A stretch of DNA of 64,000 bases. Source: Lytechinus variegatus (Eukaryota > Echinodermata > Echinoidea > Temnopleuroida > Toxopneustidae). Under the pieces are notes generated by a model. It was not told where the DNA came from and ran no database searches. It saw only the letters and a program-made list of their open reading frames with translations. Shown here one piece after another: positions 3,970 through 21,763 of this stretch. A program made the translations under genes and the position numbers. The stretch is from contig NC_054757.1 in assembly GCF_018143015.1 (NCBI RefSeq), forward strand, positions 2,962,001 to 3,026,000, written 5' to 3'. Position 1 is the stretch's first letter; every line of letters begins with the position of its first letter.

Positions 3970-4288
3970 ATGTTATTATTGATCTCCAACATGAAGTTCA
4001 ACGTTAGTCCAGTCCGAATCCTCGAAAACAACTTCGTTATCCCAACCGTCCTCATCGTCATCGTCCATTATGTGACGATGTCGACTTCCACCTCGTCCGC
4101 GGAGTCGTTGGTGCTGGAGGACTTCCAGCATTTAACCGACAAGCTCACTCATAAGATCATGGAGAATATCGAGAGATTGAAAGCAACCGACCCAAACTGG
4201 GGGCAGCCCCCTAAGGATATGGGAGAGGACGATATGACACAGGAACAGATGAAAAGTATCTCAGAATGTGAATTTCATTGTCCAAATG
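3970..4288 (+). CDS. pla2g12: PLA2G12-like exon 1 (signal peptide to CEFHC)
   Basis: Open from ATG 3970 to a donor at 4289 (AATG|GTAACT, phase 1). Two in-frame ATGs are possible, 3970 and 3991. The frame is also open upstream of 3970, but without an ATG. It encodes the hydrophobic leader, a Ser/Thr-rich linker, a helical stretch (LVLEDFQHLTDKL) and the first two cysteines. Confidence 0.8.
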
Positions 4289-7200
4289 GTAACTATTTCG
4301 GTCTATTTCGCTTTATCAATACGATCTGTAGGCCTACAATGGCATAGATACACTGTTTGAATCAGTTACGATTTGCATACATGTATATTTAAAGTTATTT
4401 AAAACATTCACAATCAGTTGAGAACATACAACATGATAAACCACCAACCATCATTTTTTATCATTCGTTTGTCAAATATGCATCACAGGTAATATATACA
4501 AATTTAGATAAATGAAGTTTCCCTGTTAAATGTTTTATCTGTTTTACAATTGACAACGCTTAATATTAACATGCGGGCCCGAAACAGGAACTGATTTTTT
4601 TTCAACACTAAGACCTGAAAATGGGAAATTCTAAGCACCATTGTTGTCTACACTGGATAGGTACTTTACTGTAAAGATAATGCGAGCGCGAAGCGCGATC
4701 TGAAATTTTGATATTTTGGCACGTCGAAAGGATAAATTTAAGACAATAACATCAACATAAGGCCAATATCAATGTGAGGTCGAAGCACGAGCTTCAATAG
4801 TTTGAAATTCAAACCTATATTGTTTCAGAGTATACGTATCCTCCTTAACAAATTAATATTGTGAGCGCGAAGCGCGAATTTAAACATTTTTATACTCAGA
4901 CCTGAAGACAGAGAATTTCTAAACAATCAAAACAAAACATAGGGCCTCATCAGGATGCGTACTCCACTGCACAAAACAACTAGCTTGTGTAGTTTTCACC
5001 CAAAACACACATTATTGGTTTAGAACTACCCAGAAGTTTTAACCAATTGTGAGGACAGTATGTTGCCCAGCAACAGAGTGTACAATAATGATTGATTAGC
5101 AGGCTAATTACTCCTGAATTTTAGTAATACATGATTGATAAGAGAATAGCCAGCCAATAAGCTAACCGTTTTACCCCATTTTTTTACAGGTCAGATGGAA
5201 GTGGAAAACGAGCAATTCAAAATGCCAGGTTATAAAAACTGCAAGGATTATGACAGCATGGTTCGTATAACGACTACTCCTATTAAAGGTCAAGTCCACC
5301 TCAGAAAAATGTTGATATGAATCAATATAGAAAAATCAGACAAGCACAATGCTCAAAATTTCATCAAAATCGGATGTAAAATAAGAAAGTTATGACATTT
5401 CAAATTTTCGCTTATTTTTAACAAAATAGTTATATGAACGAGCCAGTTACATCCAAATGAGAGAGTCGATGATGTCACTCACTCACTATTTCTTTTGTTT
5501 TTTATTGTTTGAATTATAGAATATTTCAAAGTTTACGAATTTGACGATTCGGACCTCCTTGCCTGAAGCACAAAATGTTAAAATAATGGAATTCCACGTG
5601 TTCAGGGAGGAATGAAACTTCATTTCACATGACAATGACGAGAAAATAACAATATTTCATATTTCATATAATAAAGTACAAAAGAAATAGTGAGTGAGTG
5701 ATGTCATCAGTTCCTCATTCGCATACCGACCGAGATGTGCATATAACTGTTTTGTGAAATGAAGCGAAATTTAAAATGCCATAACTTTCTTATTTTACAT
5801 TCGATTTTGATGAAATTTTCAGTGTTATGCTTGTTGAATTTTTCTCTTTTTATTCACATCAGGTTTTTGTTGGGGTCGACTTGTCCTTTGCCTTACTGCC
5901 ATTTAACTGAATGATTAGATAATAATATTGTTAAAGGTAACTTTATATTGGATCTATCATGAATGTTTAGCCGAGGCTACCCTTAAGATTGAAGAAATAG
6001 AAAGGGGCAGGGGAAATAACCAGACAGAGATAGAAATAATGGAAGGGATGGGGGGGGGGGGGGGGGCACAGAAATAGAGGGAGACAGGGGTGGTGGAGAG
6101 GGAGTGGAAGAAACAAAATACTTAAAAAAGGAATCATGATTTCCTTCTAATTTACAACAAACGAAGTACAAATTCCGTATAAATCAACAATTAAAGTATT
6201 ATTTGAAACAGAATTTGATGAATAATAGTTCCAATCAATACTGGAAGAACAGTAGCATTTTATTTGTGAGAGAAAAAAATGAAGTCCGTCTTTTAATCAC
6301 TCTTCAGCCACTTGTCCTACTTTGCCTCAATTCGCTCATTATATGTTAAAGTCGTTTTCATCAAAGACAGTTTCATTTTTATTTTACTTAGGTTCATTTT
6401 TAGAGTCGAGACATAAAGCAAGAAATACTTTTGATATACTGACTGACATCTAAAAGTAAATTGCCAATTCGACTATTGCAAACTCGTCCACTCATCACAT
6501 GGCCTGCCTTCATTTAGTCTAGTGCCATTACGTCCATCAACGTTTCGTCTAACAACCATTTGGTCCAATTACCACTCGGTTCAATCATCACTTCGTTTAA
6601 TCACCATTTCGGCTATATGACCAGTTCAACTAATAACTAGTTGGTCTAAATTCCATTTCCTTTTCACTCATTTCGCCCAATACCACTAAGTCCAATAAAG
6701 ACGAAATGGTATATGGACTAAATGGCTATAAGACCAACTGGTTATTAGACGAAATAGTGAGTGGACGAAATGGCATTAGACCATGTGGATAGTAAACGAA
6801 CTGACGGTAGACCAAATGATAGTAGACGAGTTAGTAATTGGACGAATTGGCATTGGACCAATGATAAACCCATGCACCATAACGAGTAAGCTTTGCATTT
6901 GTTTTAATTGTAGTGGGACCGGATACCAGGTGCCTCGGACTGTTGTAAGCGACATCAGATTTGCTACCATACATGTGGGCTTGAAAGAACACGGTGTGAC
7001 ATGGAGTTTACTAGGTGTATGGAGAATGTTTGCGAAGAATTACAAGAGAAAGGAATGATTAAAACGGAGAAAGTTATCGAAGGTAAGACGGTAGGATAGG
7101 AATAGGATCCAGAATAGGTAGGGTAGGATAGGATCCAGAATAGGAAACTTACTTTTGTTACAAAATTATTGACTACACTCTTTACATAGTTGGGCAAGAA

Positions 7201-8187
7201 ATGCCCAACTTTTAACAACCTCTGTGATTTATTTTGGAAGAAAAAAGGTGTGTGATTTGCTCATATTAAGCACTTTCTTATGTCAAAAGGAAGCGCTTAA
7301 TTATGAGCGAAATCACACTTTTTTTTCTTTTAAAATAAATCACAGAAGTTTTCTTGCTTCGCGTGCATGAAAAGAAAAGAATCCATCTTCTACCTTGCAT
7401 CATATCCCTTAAAGATTTTTTTCTTCGTAATCGAGTTATATAATCTAAGAAATATTAAAATTATAATTAGAGCACTCAAAAGTTTCAAAATTTCAGAGCT
7501 GCAACGCCATTCGCGGGAAGGAATATTTCCTCCCTGCATCTTCTACACTGTTTTGCGAGTTAAAGAAATTTAATGTTGCTAACATTCTTGCTATAAAATG
7601 TGATCAGACCAAGGTACTACCACTTTTGTTCTCAATTTGTATAAAACGTTTTAGCTTTTGCTCATCGCGCGGGAACATAAATTATTTCAATCTTAATTGC
7701 TCATTCTTTCCCTTTTTTTGGCGCACATAATTTCTTTCCAAAACGATTTATTAAAAATCACAGCAAGTTATTTGAAGGCGAGTTGATAAGGGTACGCACT
7801 AGAGACGCAAGAGACGTCTTCCCTCTTATCTCTTCGTTTTCTTTTTCTTCATCACCAGCTTGTGTTTCTGCTATGAGAATGCTTGGTATCATGGTTATGG
7901 AACCCGGATGTAAAATGTATCCTAAAGCACAGGGCGCTGCCTGTCGGTGTGTCGACAAGGATCCCGATGATGATGTCGACGCTGATAGCAGCCTGTCTGA
8001 TTCAAATACCTCAGGAAAATTTGTCGACAACGAAAGAAGGCTAAAGGACTTGACACCGAAGAAAGATGACATCGTGATTAATGATAAAGGCAATGAAAAC
8101 ATTGGTGATGTTGAGATGACCATCGACGACGACGACGACGACTTCGACAATGGTATAGGCGCTCGTGTTGACCGGGATGAGCTATGA
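3970..8187 (+). CDS. pla2g12: Group XII secreted phospholipase A2-like protein, probable pseudoenzyme with ER-retrieval tail
   Basis: Four exons (3970-4288, 5190-5260, 6914-7082, 7859-8187) join in phase to 295 codons. Residues 1-44 hold a hydrophobic core (FVIPTVLIVIV) that looks like a signal peptide; the alternative start at 3991 (MKFNVSP) fits one better. Residues 100-217 form the PLA2 domain: CEFHC, NC, CCKRHQICYHTC, RCDMEFTRC, VC, AC, GC and AACRC. By eye all 14 cysteines match human PLA2G12A. The catalytic His is kept (144) but the calcium-binding Asp that follows it in active enzymes is Gln (145), and the glycine-rich calcium loop is replaced by CKDYDSM. Phospholipid hydrolysis is therefore unlikely. 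Vertebrate PLA2G12B is likewise inactive and works in the ER in lipoprotein assembly, but there the His is lost. Residues 218-295 are a very acidic tail ending RDEL, predicting ER-lumen residence. The human proteins are about 190-195 residues, so this one has extra length at both ends. The family assignment is firm; the function is inferred. Confidence 0.88.
4660..4895. repeat. Dispersed GCGCGAAGCGCG repeat in intron 1
   Basis: Two copies of the palindromic core GCGCGAAGCGCG (near 4686 and 4866) are each followed by a 'tgaaattt/aatttaaa' tract. Related cores occur on either strand near 34550, 34660, 45415, 54890, 54975 and 56395. It looks like a dispersed echinoderm repeat of unknown type. 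Confidence 0.55.
5190..5260 (+). CDS. pla2g12: PLA2G12-like exon 2 (degenerate calcium-loop exon)
   Basis: The acceptor TTTTTTACAG|GT restores phase 1 from exon 1. The donor ATG|GTTCGT is weak but is the one that joins exon 3 in frame at TGG; a better-looking GT 26 bases on (AAAG|GTCAAG) belongs to an inserted MITE. It encodes MPGYKNCKDYDSM, the place of the calcium loop. Confidence 0.65.
5287..5887. mobile_element. Palindromic MITE, TTAA family a (copy 1), in intron 2
   Basis: Its inverted ends AGGTCAAGTCCACC and GGTCGACTTGTCCT follow TTAA on the left and TTGC (a decayed TTAA) on the right. Internally the arms mirror each other around 'gagtgagtgatgtcat'. It is about 90 percent like 39083-39605 by eye. 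TTAA target sites suggest a piggyBac-type source. Confidence 0.7.
6040..6070. repeat. Poly-G run
   Basis: About 16 uninterrupted G near 6051-6066 within a GGGA-rich stretch of intron 2. Confidence 0.8.
6466..6862. mobile_element. Foldback element made of GTCTAAT/ATTAGAC blocks, in intron 2
   Basis: The left half carries repeated short blocks of the type 'cgtctaa-accattt-gtc', and the right half carries their reverse complements. The whole is thus a ~400-bp palindrome of degenerate ~18-bp repeats. A second copy lies at 29790-30182. It ends only about 50 bp before the acceptor of PLA2-like exon 3. Confidence 0.65.
6914..7082 (+). CDS. pla2g12: PLA2G12-like exon 3 (active-site exon, His-Gln)
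   Basis: The acceptor is TTTTAATTGTAG|TG and the donor GAAG|GTAAGA (phase 1). It encodes WDRIPGASD, then CCKRHQICYHTCG (residues 140-152) and the second half of the disulfide core. The Gln codon is CAG at 6956-6958. The frame is uninterrupted and the family spacing is kept, so this exon is under protein-level constraint rather than a fossil. Confidence 0.88.
7217..7350. mobile_element. Short palindromic MITE in intron 3
   Basis: About 55-bp inverted arms run from CTGTGATTTATTTT to its complement AAAATAAATCACAG, with a small loop near 7285. No genes. Just upstream, 7087-7143 holds a short tandem of 'taggataggatccagaa'. Confidence 0.65.
7859..8187 (+). CDS. pla2g12: PLA2G12-like exon 4 (last cysteines, acidic tail, RDEL stop)
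   Basis: The acceptor CACCAG|CT joins exon 3 as Ala-Cys. It encodes the family C-terminal block ACVSAMRML...PGCKMYP...AACRC, then a 78-residue tail rich in Asp (a DDDDDD run near 8126-8150) ending RDEL before TGA. Open frame continues upstream of the acceptor but lacks similarity, so the splice site is preferred. Confidence 0.85.
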
Positions 8188-10894: not shown

Positions 10895-11114
10895 GCTTAT
10901 AATAATGTTTATTTACCCAGGGTATAGCCACTTCAGTTAGAAAACTGCTCTACCAGCGGGCCCTGCATAAGTTATTACCCTTCTCCAATCTAAATGCCAA
11001 GCGCCTAGCAAGAAGGCAGAAAGTCCCATTTTTATAAGTCTTTGGTACGATTCGGTCGAGGATCGAACCCACGACCTCCCGTTCATGAGGCGGACGCTCT
11101 ACCACTGAGCCACC
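10895..11114 (-). mobile_element. tRNA-derived SINE
   Basis: On the minus strand the head reads TGGCTCAGTGGTAGAGCG (A-box region) and then GGTTCGATCC (B box), as in a tRNA. A non-tRNA body and an AATAAACATTATTATAA tail follow. The tRNA-like part is not foldable as a full tRNA with an acceptor stem, so it is a SINE and not a tRNA gene. It is similar in kind to the sea urchin SURF SINEs. Confidence 0.7.
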
Positions 11115-12075
11115 ATTTTAAAAGTTAAACACAATCCTATACACACAAACGCTATCACAAACCAAATCAAAAACGCAAGAAAGCACATAATCTTTAAAAT
11201 AAGAAATATTCACAGGTAGTCATTTTATTTCCCTTTCTATAAGAAGGAACGCCATAGGTGGCCTTAGTGAGGTTCAGAAACACATAATATCACATTGTCA
11301 TTATAATAACTCTTTCCATACAGTTTTTCTTCAATGAATTCATAATAGAGTTCTATATTCAAAATAAATTATGAATGTTTAACAAGAAATGGACAAAGAA
11401 TGGGGTTGAAAATTTGTAATTGAAATATGGTTTCACAATTCTCAGTCTTCAGGGTCCTCATCCATTTGAAATGGATATACCTAAGGTTTTACTTTCAAAG
11501 GAACTGTTTTACATGTTTCATTGTCTTTGTAGGGCAAAGAACTGGATACATGGATATCAACATACAATTACCATAGCTGCTGGGATGTGAATATCTTGTC
11601 CACTCTAGGGATCAAAAGTGGTCAAGAATCTCATCAAGTATATGCGCGCGACTACATTGTCTGGTTCCAGAAAAAAGATACATGCAAACAAAAAAAAGAC
11701 ATATATCATTTCTCATTAAAAACCAGTGTCAATATCTTAATGGCATTGCAATTACAGTATTATATGCTCTGACCCATATACGTTGATCACAGCGACAGAG
11801 CGTGTCTTATCAATCCTATCACACAATTAACCCGTCTCAGTTTTTTCACCTTCATTCGTTTGATATTCAAATTAAAACACTTTCCAGCATCCTTCATGTA
11901 GTATACTGTAGCTAGCAGCATATCTAGAAAAACAATATAGTGCAGAGCAAGTAATAACAGTACTATAAAGTTAAAAAGCCGTTTTTGCTAGGTTCAGTTT
12001 GCAATCAATAACAACTCCTATTGCTTACAAGTACACATATGATATGACTATTAAATAATAAGTATAAATGAGATC
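11115..12075. other. Intergenic, nothing recognised
   Basis: AT-rich unique-looking DNA without exons or clear repeats. It could include part of a long 3' untranslated region of the 4E-BP gene, which is transcribed toward it; TTTATT (a poly-A signal on the minus strand) occurs near 11225. Confidence 0.35.
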
Positions 12076-18141: not shown

Positions 18142-21100
18142 CTAGTTAAAAGAATAAGATAGAGAGAGAGAGAAAAGAAAGATGGTGAATTATACCAAGA
18201 GCACGCATTTCAAACAAACATATTTCATTCCGGCAAGACATGACAATTTTGTTACAATTCCAAAAATGAAATCTTTTAAAAAAAGTTGTCACTTTGCATC
18301 ATAAATTTTCTCAGCATGACTTACGATGTCCATTGAAGCATATGAAATAAATCTAAAGTTTCCTTCAAAAATGTAATCAGTTAGTGATAAGTTCATCAAG
18401 TGCTATTCATTCTTGAAACAGCTGTGTTCAAACTACATTGTACAAACAATATAGACTTAATCCAAAGGCCTGTGAAATGTGAATTCATATTCCTAAATTT
18501 CTGCAAGTTTTTGTTTCACTAGGTCTAGGTGTCTGATTAAGAATCAAGAATCCAGGATTTTTATTTCTTACGACATAAAGAATAAAAGTTTGCCACTTAA
18601 GACAGAGGCGGTACATGTACCTCACCATCTTTCTTGTTAAAAAAGGGAAGTGGGCACATGCCCCACTCCCATGTATACAATGTACCTGCTGGGACCAAAT
18701 TAATTATTAATGTAATCCAAGGCCATGAAGAGCCATGGTACATGTAGTTGATAGTGCAGGGTGCTGTTTCATAAAGCTGTTCGTAAATTAAGAGCGACTT
18801 TAAGAATGACTGGTGAACCTTCTTACAGGCTAAACCATGAACATTTTTGTATATACCATTTACCACAAGAAAGGAGGTCTTAAAGTCGCTCTCAACTTAC
18901 AAACAGTTTTATGAAACAGCCCCAGGTCAATATTGCCTAGTCTAAACATTCATATTTGTCCATTTTAAGTGGTAATTCTGTGAGAGCAGGGAAGGGAAAA
19001 AAATCAAAGCAAGACTTTCAAGTGCTTGTCCTTGAAGAGTGGGCATTTGTGTACCAACTAAACTAATAGTTCTGAGTTGGTTTAAAGCAATTCAGAGCAG
19101 CATGTGGTCAATCACTAGTGATTATCTTTTAATAATAATAGTTTTTGGCATATAGTGTTACTATGATATATCAACATATTCATAAATCATTATCAAATAA
19201 TATTTTTCAATATCACATAATATCGATGATAAAGAATTTAGAAATATTACCCAACACTAGCGGTTGATGCCCTTTTTATTGGCTTTAGTGCCCCACTCAT
19301 TAACCTCAGAGACTTATTGTGCCTTTTTAGATTTTTTTTTTCTTCTTCCATTTGAGCTGTAATGTATAAACATAACATACCTTCAGATGTTATGAAAGTG
19401 GACTTGCCCTGAAAATATTGAAATGTAAGGTGTGTACCTGTTTTACTCTTCGGAGCCTTGCTTTCGCCATTAGGTTTATCACCGGTCACTTCTGGACAGG
19501 TCACTCCAGGAATTGAAGGCAAGTTCTTAGGAGGAGTCTGGCTCAGTGGAGAATTCCTCATATTCAACAAAAAGTGACGATCGTAAATGATGCGTGTTCC
19601 TAGGGAATAAAAGAAGGATAGAGTTTCACATGGGTAAAGTAACCAGAGGGCAGTTCATAAAGCTATTTGTAACTAAAAACCAAATTGACTGGTAACCATT
19701 TCTTGGGAACTCAAGTTACTCAACAATGAAAATTTGATGTGTACCATTTACCACAAGAAAGGATCAGCAGTCAAACAGCTTTATAAATAACTCATCCAGG
19801 CCTGGACTGTAATTGTAATACATGTACGGCAAACAATAAATAATCATTCATTAAAATCAAGTTTCAAATTTAATTATTTGTTAAATAATAATTTCTATAG
19901 ATCTGTATATAAATTGTCCTTCAAAATGGCATTTTGTAACATCGCTTATCGAAGCTTCGTCATAACAAAATTGGGTTTTTAAATGGGCTCTAAGAGCCTC
20001 CTTAACCCTGCCACACTCATCTGTACACTCTCGTCGTGAAGACAGTGAGATGTGGCCATCAAGGTAACTTCAAGGTAACTTCAAGGGTCAAGGCTGTCGT
20101 ATTTGCGGTGTTTATGAACGGATTGAGTGATCTACACGAGATCGGTCTGGTAAGAAACCTCTCATATTTACATGTATACTAACATTTTTTGAAGGTGTAT
20201 AGTGAACAGTCAGACATTCAAATAAAAACAATTAAGTGATTTGTACTAGTTTATAGTCAGATTTGCTAGGGAAATCCATCCGTGTTTATGCCACTTTTTT
20301 ATTCAAGTACATCACATTCACTGTGTATGGGGAGGATTCATGATGAACAGATGAAAAAGTATACTGTCTATGAGTCTGACATGTCAAAATATTTAAAAAT
20401 ATCATCACGGAGTCCTGGGTCAAATCACTCATTCAATGAACAAGGTTATGGGTCAAATCGGCCTAACTAAATGTGTACGTTAGCTAATGAGCATGATGAG
20501 TAATGCCATGGCTAATCTTTGCAGTTCTTTGCCCCAGGGGCCCGTTGCTGAAAGAGTTGAATTTAAACGCAAGTCAAAATATCAAGCGCAAGTCCGAAAT
20601 GCATGCTGTTGATTGGTTGAAAATCAAGTTGCGCTTGATTTTTAGAGTTGTGATTGATTGCAACTCTTTCTGCAACAGACCCCAGGCCTGGGATCGTGAT
20701 CGGGAGGGTCGAAGGAAGGCTTGGGCCGATTGCACGAAAGGGTCTTTGCAAGGACGGTCTTTCGTGTCACCCCGGGGGGCCACTTCCATTCACGAGTGGA
20801 TACCATGCGCGACCATGGGGTCTCGAAAAGCACCCTAAACACGTAATTTACATATTCTGAAAATGCACCCCTTAACAAGTATTGGCGTGTGAAACCCTAC
20901 CCTTAACAAGTATTGGAAACAAAACGATACTCATGGCAAATATTCCCTGAAATGAACCCCTAAACAAGTACAGGAATGTTTTATTGTTACGGGTCCTTCG
21001 GTCGTCGGCTTTACCTTATTTGGTTTAGTACGACCCCACCTTCTACACCTCGCGCAAATAAGACTCTAAACACGTAGTGTTGGGGCAAAAAGGACGTCCT

Positions 21101-21763
21101 TTATAAAACATTTTAATTTTGTTTTATCATCCCCGCAAATTCGACCCTAAACACGTAATTTTCCTAGCGAAATAGATACCCTTTTTTCATTATTTTTGTG
21201 TTTTTGACACCCTTATCACGTTACGTACGTAACGTGCCCTATCGTGAAAAGGACATCCTTTTTACGTGTTTTTGGTCGCGCATGGTATCCACTCGTCAAT
21301 GTAAGTGGCCCCCCCGGGCGTGTCACCCATCTTTTATGATGCGCCAAGAAACGCATTTTAAATAAATCATCTCCAAACATATTTCATTCGTCCGTTAAAA
21401 TTAACAGAATACTTGTTTATAAAATGATATGATATCTTATGAAATTGTATAAAATTTGATTTAAAAGCAAGCTAACAAATCTTATTCTTTATCATAAATT
21501 TCAGAAACACCCCGCTTATAGCGTATCATAAAAGATGGGCGACACGAAAGATGGTCCTTGGAAAGACCCTTTCGTGCAATCGGCCCCAGTATAACGTTAG
21601 CGTTAGTGTGTGTTTACGCACCTCCCGGGGTCGTTGAAAACAATGTGCCTCCTGGCGTTGTGCTGTAATCTTGTGGAAGCTGCGATGGGTCGTCGACGGC
21701 TACTCTTTTCGCTGGAATATCCCGACCAGCACTGAGTTGACGACTTGCTGCAGGGGCTGACAT
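18107..21763 (-). CDS. eif4ebp: eIF4E-binding protein (4E-BP), translational repressor
   Basis: Three exons on the minus strand (21763-21622, 19599-19438, 18141-18107) join in phase 1 at both junctions to 112 codons; human 4E-BP1 has 118. Order: [20 protein letters not shown] at the N-terminus, then [17 protein letters not shown] with both priming TP sites (human Thr37/Thr46), YDRHFLL as the YxxxxL-phi eIF4E-binding helix, [19 protein letters not shown] with the Ser65/Thr70-type sites, a Lys/Ser linker, and the C-terminal TOS motif FQMDI that recruits mTORC1 through Raptor. The protein blocks eIF4F assembly in the cytoplasm until mTORC1 phosphorylates it. In sea urchins 4E-BP is known to be released and destroyed at fertilisation. 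Differences from vertebrates: RDIP instead of RAIP, and FQMDI instead of FEMDI. It lies head to head with LRRC20. Confidence 0.95.
18756..18925. mobile_element. Palindromic MITE (CTGTTTCATAAAGCTG) in 4E-BP intron 2
   Basis: The end 'gctgtttcataaagctgtt' is mirrored by 'aacagttttatgaaacagc'. The internal arms AGCGACTTTAAGA / TCTTAAAGTCGCT also pair. A diverged relative is at 19648-19800 in intron 1, sharing 'taccatttaccacaagaaagga'-like text. Confidence 0.7.
19438..19599 (-). CDS. eif4ebp: 4E-BP exon 2 (eIF4E-binding helix and TP/SP sites)
   Basis: The acceptor CCCTAG|GA gives Gly-Thr-Arg-Ile-Ile-Tyr-Asp-Arg, and the donor is ACAG|GTACAC. It carries YDRHFLL and the NSP and QTP phosphorylation sites. 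The open frame beyond the donor (toward 19247) has no similarity to the family and is read-through. Confidence 0.93.
20532..20688. mobile_element. Palindromic MITE (GCCCGTTGC/GCAACAGACCCC) in 4E-BP intron 1
   Basis: The inverted arms are 'ggcccgttgctgaaagagtt' against 'aactctttctgcaacag', with nested pairs 'atcaagcgcaag' / 'ttgcgcttgat'. The several ORFs here are shadows of this element. Confidence 0.7.
20723..21587. mobile_element. Palindromic element, outer of a nested pair, in 4E-BP intron 1
   Basis: The outer arms GGGCCGATTGCACGAAAGGG (left) and their complement ending at 21587 continue through GTGTCACCC and ATCTTTTATGATGCGC. The left arm is split by the element at 20773-21318 and reads continuously if that is removed. 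Confidence 0.75.
20773..21318. mobile_element. Palindromic element nested in the one above
   Basis: The ends GGGGGGCCACTT (left) and AAGTGGCCCCCC (right), then ACGAGTGGATACCATGCGCG and its complement, form long inverted repeats. It is flanked by a direct repeat CGTGTCACCC (20763-20772 and 21319-21328), a target-site duplication of about 8-10 bp. Many 'taaacacgtaatt' words lie inside. The 8-10-bp duplication is compatible with a hAT- or Mutator-type source. Confidence 0.75.
21622..21763 (-). CDS. eif4ebp: 4E-BP exon 1 (start codon to TTPGG)
   Basis: ATG is at 21763-21761 (context AAAATGTC) and the donor is GGAG|GTGCGT in phase 1. It encodes RDIP and both TTPGG blocks. Confidence 0.93.

Follow-up and report, generated by a model that had tools for sequence, protein, structure and literature searches.

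We describe here a gene of the sea urchin Lytechinus variegatus that encodes a group XII secreted phospholipase A2 (sPLA2) in which both the Asp that binds Ca2+ and the glycine-rich calcium loop have been replaced. The gene lies in a stretch of 64,000 nucleotides (positions 2,962,001 to 3,026,000 of contig NC_054757.1, assembly GCF_018143015.1), hereafter called the window; the genome that we searched comprises 870 Mb in 33 contigs, and the window stands at 2.96-3.03 Mb of one of them. We think that this gene is a co-orthologue of vertebrate PLA2G12A and PLA2G12B, that it is the sole detected group XII gene of the genome, and that it encodes a pseudoenzyme of the lumen of the endoplasmic reticulum (ER). 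Judging from sequence comparison, we would put the probability of this reading at roughly 55%. Loss of catalysis in group XII is already known from PLA2G12B; what is new is that it was lost independently by a species in which no enzymatic group XII gene is detected. In the openly licensed literature, searched by titles and abstract openings, none of the papers listed dealt with group XII PLA2 of sea urchins.

The loss of the calcium site is apparent when the urchin protein is aligned with eight XIIA-type proteins, seven from named vertebrates and one unnamed. Where XIIA has CCNQHDRCYDTC, the urchin protein reads CCKRHQICYHTC, and KNCKDYDSM stands in place of the XIIA glycine loop NGCGSPLFG; exon 3 of the gene reads WDRIPGASDCCKRHQICYHTCGLERTRCDMEFTRCMENVCEELQEKGMIKTEKVIE. 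Both annotated urchin records, those of Lytechinus pictus and Strongylocentrotus purpuratus, have 15 residues between the loop Cys and the CC, versus 18 in the six XIIA proteins measured. The original prediction, made from the letters of the window, was thus right that Gln replaces Asp after the active-site His, since HQ is common to the three urchin proteins (3/3), and right that CKDYDSM replaces the glycine-rich calcium loop, which is also three residues shorter. It had proposed to map the residue after the His across the family. This residue is Asp in 24/24 non-urchin rows and Gln in both urchin rows, and the columns identical in at least 23 of these 24 rows yet altered in urchins include the N, G, G, S, F and G of the loop together with this Asp. 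Another 151 group XII records were fetched, a redundant set with isoforms, fragments and chimeric predictions among them: 137 have HD, 10 lack the motif, and four have other letters (HG in one, QG in one, QD in two). These four are single mammalian predictions and look like degraded copies.

The residues that were lost and those that were kept have different roles. The dyad of sPLA2s is described as His48-Asp99, and Ca2+ as held by Asp49 and the backbone carbonyls of the loop (PMC7583969). The original prediction had spoken of a broken His-Asp catalytic pair, which is correct in that an Asp is gone and incorrect in that the missing residue, of the Asp49 type, is a ligand of Ca2+, and the dyad Asp is remote according to the same source. 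In the urchin protein the dyad Asp is likely D152, as the equivalent of Asp99; it is invariant in both group XII alignments, and His137 and Asp152 are both kept in 3/3 urchin proteins. With the Asp ligand and the loop changed and these two residues in place, the Ca2+ site has been lost from both sides and the dyad has probably been kept. The single loop change Gly30Ser is reported to abolish Ca2+ binding and catalysis in human group IIA (PMC7583969), which makes canonical activity of the urchin protein very unlikely, and we predict with high confidence that it has none. A protein that is still an enzyme would have to hydrolyse weakly, with Ca2+ held in some other way, e.g., by the acidic tail or by the acidic residues around KDYDSMWD, or to carry out a Ca2+-independent reaction. 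Such an enzyme would explain why His137 and the likely dyad Asp152 persist in all three urchin proteins, which pure loss of catalysis does not require, and the activity of XIIA itself is reported to be very weak (PMC3111613). However, the retention of His and Asp may be structural, the protein has neither the Asp ligand nor the glycine loop, and in group IIA the Gly30Ser change is enough on its own. We consider continued catalysis quite improbable. A parallel is offered by the venom PLA2 homologues without Asp49, which come in Lys49, Gln49 and Ser49 types and which have also lost the Ca2+-ligand Asp and retained the sPLA2 scaffold. They differ in belonging to another sPLA2 group and in being secreted, their kinship to the urchin protein is only at the level of the superfamily, and they are set beside it here by description.

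Despite these changes, the protein is recognisably a member of the family. It matches PF06951 (PLA2G12) as its sole Pfam family with 74 bits (E 1.9e-20), and since the cut-off is 34 the resemblance is not due to chance. The same model gives 72.5 bits for the L. pictus record, 71.5 bits for that of S. purpuratus and 262 bits for catfish XIIA, and the distance between this last value and that of the window protein marks the urchin protein as a diverged member. The window protein has 14 Cys in matching aligned positions, and 14/14 XIIA Cys columns are also Cys in the L. pictus (P0001) and S. purpuratus (P0002) records. All 14 cysteines and the open frame are therefore kept, as the original prediction had claimed, and its further suggestion that the protein is made and folded seems plausible given the intact Cys framework and frame. 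Structural comparisons were less informative. A sequence search of the PDB with the window protein returned nothing at E<=0.001 and five weak matches up to E 10, none of them a PLA2. With Foldseek, no match reached E<=0.001, and the best 50 of 144 matches did not include a PLA2. A PLA2 match, to the fungal and bacterial sPLA2 fold (4aup, PLA2 of Tuber borchii; 18% identity over the aligned part), appeared in the VIA re-ranking alone.

The gene consists of four exons on the + strand with gt-ag introns, and the spliced product has 288 aa and 14 Cys (Table 1). Exon 1 is alignable in both orthologue records, of L. pictus and of S. purpuratus, and its most hydrophobic 15-residue stretch, which begins at residue 15, is signal-peptide-like, as judged by hydrophobicity alone. 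Exon 2 was called from the orthologue records and the splice sites, its frame scoring -1.5 bits with the XIIA profile. Exon 3 scores 44 bits with this profile and is matched in the window by tblastn with shark XIIA (E 1.4e-6) and catfish XIIA (E 1.5e-7). Over the six frames of the window, in pieces of at least 15 aa, exons 3 and 4 alone passed the inclusion threshold of the profile. The record of L. pictus has 290 aa and follows the window protein collinearly from the Met to the last residue, except for two residues inserted in the tail; at the protein level, all the exon junctions are thereby supported. The original prediction had been placed at 6914..7082, which is exactly exon 3; only the loop remnant lies elsewhere, in exon 2 (C117 at 5240-5242, KDYDSM at 5243-5260).

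Could the missing loop be an artefact of the gene model, with a loop-coding exon or a second isoform overlooked? The donor of exon 2 (CATG/gttcgt) is no strong consensus, and an equally diverged short exon could escape the XIIA profile just as exon 2 does. Yet the two NCBI orthologue records have, at the protein level, the same join of exons 2 and 3 without a loop, and the Gln lies inside exon 3 and is thus independent of splicing. When intron 2 was scanned for a loop exon with the XIIA profile, the best + strand piece reached 0.7 bits, versus 32-34 bits for canonical 20-aa loop segments in 5/5 controls. Because the profile is blind to exon 2, a canonical loop exon is excluded by this, but one that had diverged strongly is not. 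Two other species share HQ and the join without a loop, which makes an assembly error or a missed exon very unlikely, and we rejected both: the missed loop exon because intron 2 has no canonical loop segment and the join recurs in the orthologue records, the assembly error because the two species agree on HQ and join. As a whole, an artefact of the gene model seems extremely improbable. The original prediction had named another exon between 5260 and 6914, or orthologues with Asp, as the observations that would speak against it; both were looked for and neither was found, two orthologue records having Gln. Intron 2 also contains two nested sets of inverted repeats (5285-5889 and 6464-6788; arms up to 123 nt, 82% complementary), which resemble non-autonomous foldback or miniature inverted-repeat transposable element insertions.

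The comparison of urchins gives a minimal age for the loss. The window protein is 93% identical to the L. pictus record and 64% to that of S. purpuratus, and since HQ and the loss of the loop are found in 3/3 urchin sequences, both were fixed before the split of Lytechinus and Strongylocentrotus. This is as far back as the loss can be dated, and the idea in the original prediction that a non-enzymatic role is old did not gain support from it. In the protein database searches (the best 120 of 232 matches, plus 67 listed), the named matches were all from vertebrates and some were unnamed; the only urchin records were those of L. pictus and S. purpuratus, and no other named echinoderm, hemichordate or cephalochordate group XII sequence was among the matches listed.

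Several observations argue that the protein resides in the ER. First, the window protein and the L. pictus record both end in RDEL. Second, among non-urchin group XII proteins with a recognisable C-terminus, 101/104 end in [KR]x[DE]L, with KTDL the commonest (56). Third, PLA2G12B is reported to be retained in the ER, where it increases the proportion of MTP located at the ER membrane, and its rescue activity to need each of the signal peptide, the ER motif, the calcium motif and one Cys (PMC10920679); PLA2G12A is reported as an endogenous substrate of ER-associated degradation (PMC10803770). Taken together, these endings and reports make ER residence look like a trait of the group XII family, and we consider it likely, from the motif, that the urchin protein is held in the ER as well. 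The urchin C-terminus has a peculiarity of its own: vertebrate XIIA rows stop within about 10 residues of the last Cys, and the 78-residue acidic extension of the window protein is absent from the XIIA rows aligned with it.

Two facts weigh against the interpretation of the gene as a conserved ER pseudoenzyme: of 69 columns that are near-invariant in XIIA, the two urchin rows both keep only 24, and the S. purpuratus record has a different C-terminus, without RDEL, which may be a fault of the gene model or a true difference. The first would be expected of a gene under relaxed constraint, heading for loss and kept by chance. We find this very improbable, because the frame and the splice sites are intact and none of the 14 Cys has been lost, because the core of 118 residues differs from the window protein at 34 residues in S. 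purpuratus (7 in L. pictus) with every Cys kept, and because W124 to G145 is identical at 21/22 residues between the window protein and L. pictus. The second fits a secreted or surface ligand without enzymatic activity, whose scaffold would bind a receptor or growth factor in the manner of Xenopus Rossy. The start of the protein is signal-peptide-like by its hydrophobicity, the Cys framework is kept, Rossy is cited in PMC3111613, by title, as a group XII sPLA2 that inhibits BMP signalling, and a ligand role had at one time been proposed for XIIB (PMC3422231). But RDEL ends both Lytechinus proteins, and the prevalence of such endings in the family argues for ER retention, so we judge a ligand unlikely. 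A pseudoenzyme of the ER lumen remains our preferred reading.

The relation to the vertebrate genes determines whether the loss was independent. Pla2g12a and Pla2g12b are described as vertebrate-specific duplicates (PMC4522105) and PLA2G12A/B are called ohnologs (PMC10920679). XIIA keeps both HD and the loop, so the ancestor of PLA2G12A/B very probably had both. If the urchin gene is a co-orthologue, its loss and that of 12B would accordingly be independent events. The routes were also different, as the original prediction had proposed: in PLA2G12B the active-site His is reported to be Leu (PMC3111613) and the calcium motif to be kept and essential (PMC10920679), and the urchin protein shows the reverse, so that neither feature expected of a PLA2G12B orthologue is found in it. 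With PLA2G12A it shares the PF06951 domain, the 14 Cys columns, the His, the Asp of CDxxF and a KDEL-like C-terminus, and it differs by KNCKDYDSM in place of NGCGSPLFG, by HQ in place of HD, by a loop segment three residues shorter and by its 78-residue acidic extension. With PLA2G12B, known here from papers alone, it shares a C-terminal ER signal and, as we predict, the state of a group XII pseudoenzyme (PMC10920679), and it differs in having the His and in lacking the Asp and the loop, whereas 12B lacks the His and has the calcium motif. The S. purpuratus record is titled 'group XIIB secretory phospholipase A2-like' despite its active-site His, which XIIB lacks; given that 12B is a vertebrate-specific duplicate, this title is no statement of orthology. 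Many vertebrate predicted proteins (P0123, P0125-P0127, P0133-P0141 and others) combine a caspase domain (PF00656) with PLA2G12, and several are named caspase-6; this points to neighbouring genes or read-through transcripts.

A second, catalytically intact group XII gene, the search for which had been suggested in the original prediction, was not detected. The PF06951 profile matched the whole 870-Mb genome at E<=0.001 in one place, exon 3 of this gene (the four best candidates were scored), and with the catfish XIIA probe at E<=10 the best candidates fell in two places, which correspond to its exon 3 and its exon 4. An enzymatic group XII paralogue was accordingly rejected at these thresholds for the family profile and the XIIA protein. 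The pattern CCxxHDxCY occurs in the genome at 12 places versus 1 for a reversed control. Judged by eye, ten of these look like conventional group I/II-type exons, two are chance-like, and 0/12 have a group XII continuation. The urchin thus appears to possess sPLA2 genes of the conventional sort, while an enzymatic one of group XII was not detected. The ten conventional-looking exons (L002-L011) lie at 9.56 Mb of contig C1, 7.11 Mb of C2, and 16.8-19.9 and 31.6 Mb of C11, some of them clustered.

Table 1. Positions in the window of the group XII PLA2 gene, its main elements and the neighbouring 4E-BP exons (a slash marks a splice junction)
Feature	Position	Strand	Remarks
Exon 1	3991..4288	+	ATG, short lead, hydrophobic stretch, linker, first two Cys (CEFHC); donor AATG/gtaact
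Exon 2	5190..5260	+	Ca2+-loop remnant KNCKDYDSM; acceptor tttttacag/, donor CATG/gttcgt
Exon 3	6914..7082	+	Core, IPGASDCCKRHQICYHTCGLERTRCDMEF...; splice flanks tag/ and /gtaaga
Active-site codons CAT CAG	6953..6958	+	His H137 (6953-6955) kept, Gln Q138 (6956-6958) for the Ca2+-ligand Asp
D152 codon GAC	6998..7000	+	Invariant Asp of the CDxxF motif; likely dyad Asp (putative Asp99 equivalent)
Exon 4	7859..8187	+	Last four core Cys (AC...GCKMYPKAQGAACRC), acidic extension, stop
C-terminal extension	7951..8184	+	78 residues, net charge -17, 23 Asp
RDEL	8173..8184	+	ER-retrieval-like signal abutting the stop
eIF4E-binding protein exons (PF05456)	19445-19600 and 21617-21748	-	65.6 and 62.3 bits

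The neighbourhood of the gene bears on its orthology. The two exons of an eIF4E-binding protein (4E-BP) are the only matches to PF05456 found in the genome and lie 11-14 kb downstream, tail-to-tail with the PLA2 gene. Of the 148 open reading frames in the window with 70 aa or more, 10 were compared with Pfam, and a 4E-BP exon was the only match to exceed the cut-off. All four genome matches found to the P4HA N domain (PF08336) are on the window's contig (C18, at 9.83 and 13.80 Mb). In human, PLA2G12B, P4HA1 and EIF4EBP2 are all on 10q22. The linkage of 4E-BP and P4HA fits co-orthology, hinting at a linkage shared with this human region. The window further contains a tRNA-like sequence at 11048-11119 on the - strand (Rfam 30.6 bits, threshold 29), which could be a tRNA-derived short interspersed element.

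How might such a protein work? By the established chemistry of sPLA2s, without the catalytic Ca2+ the ester to be cut would not be polarised, and ordinary PLA2 hydrolysis would be absent or negligible. The RDEL end would return the protein to the ER by means of KDEL receptors, if the motif acts as expected. There, it might bind membranes or lipids, or act as a scaffold for lipid-transfer proteins, without hydrolysis, in a manner similar to PLA2G12B and yet without loop-bound Ca2+. By this analogy, a role in the handling of lipids or lipoproteins in the ER is possible, and we propose it tentatively. PLA2G12B, whose origin is placed in vertebrates, needs no catalysis to load lipoproteins with triglyceride. 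If group XII consists in urchins of one ER pseudoenzyme, non-hydrolytic partitioning of ER lipids, e.g., in the loading of yolk or haemal lipoproteins of the vitellogenin or apolipophorin type, could be older than the 12A/12B duplication and than triglyceride-rich lipoproteins. Catalysis would then have been lost in parallel in urchins and in 12B, each loss unmasking an ancestral ER function that never needed hydrolysis and that, in urchins, needs no Ca2+ site either. This is a speculation, and a doubtful one.

The implications for the family are threefold. First, the urchin case separates the calcium motif from the non-catalytic function, two things that are mixed together in 12B. Second, the near-universal [KR]x[DE]L ending of the 'secreted' XIIA records examined (101/104) calls the name 'secreted' into question. 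Third, the urchin would be a simple animal for testing the effect of a knockout, since no enzymatic paralogue that could mask it is detected. That the only detected group XII protein of an invertebrate has lost the Ca2+ site by a route of its own and yet keeps the Cys framework and an ER-retrieval ending suggests that catalysis is dispensable in group XII, and residence in the ER may be the oldest trait that its members share.
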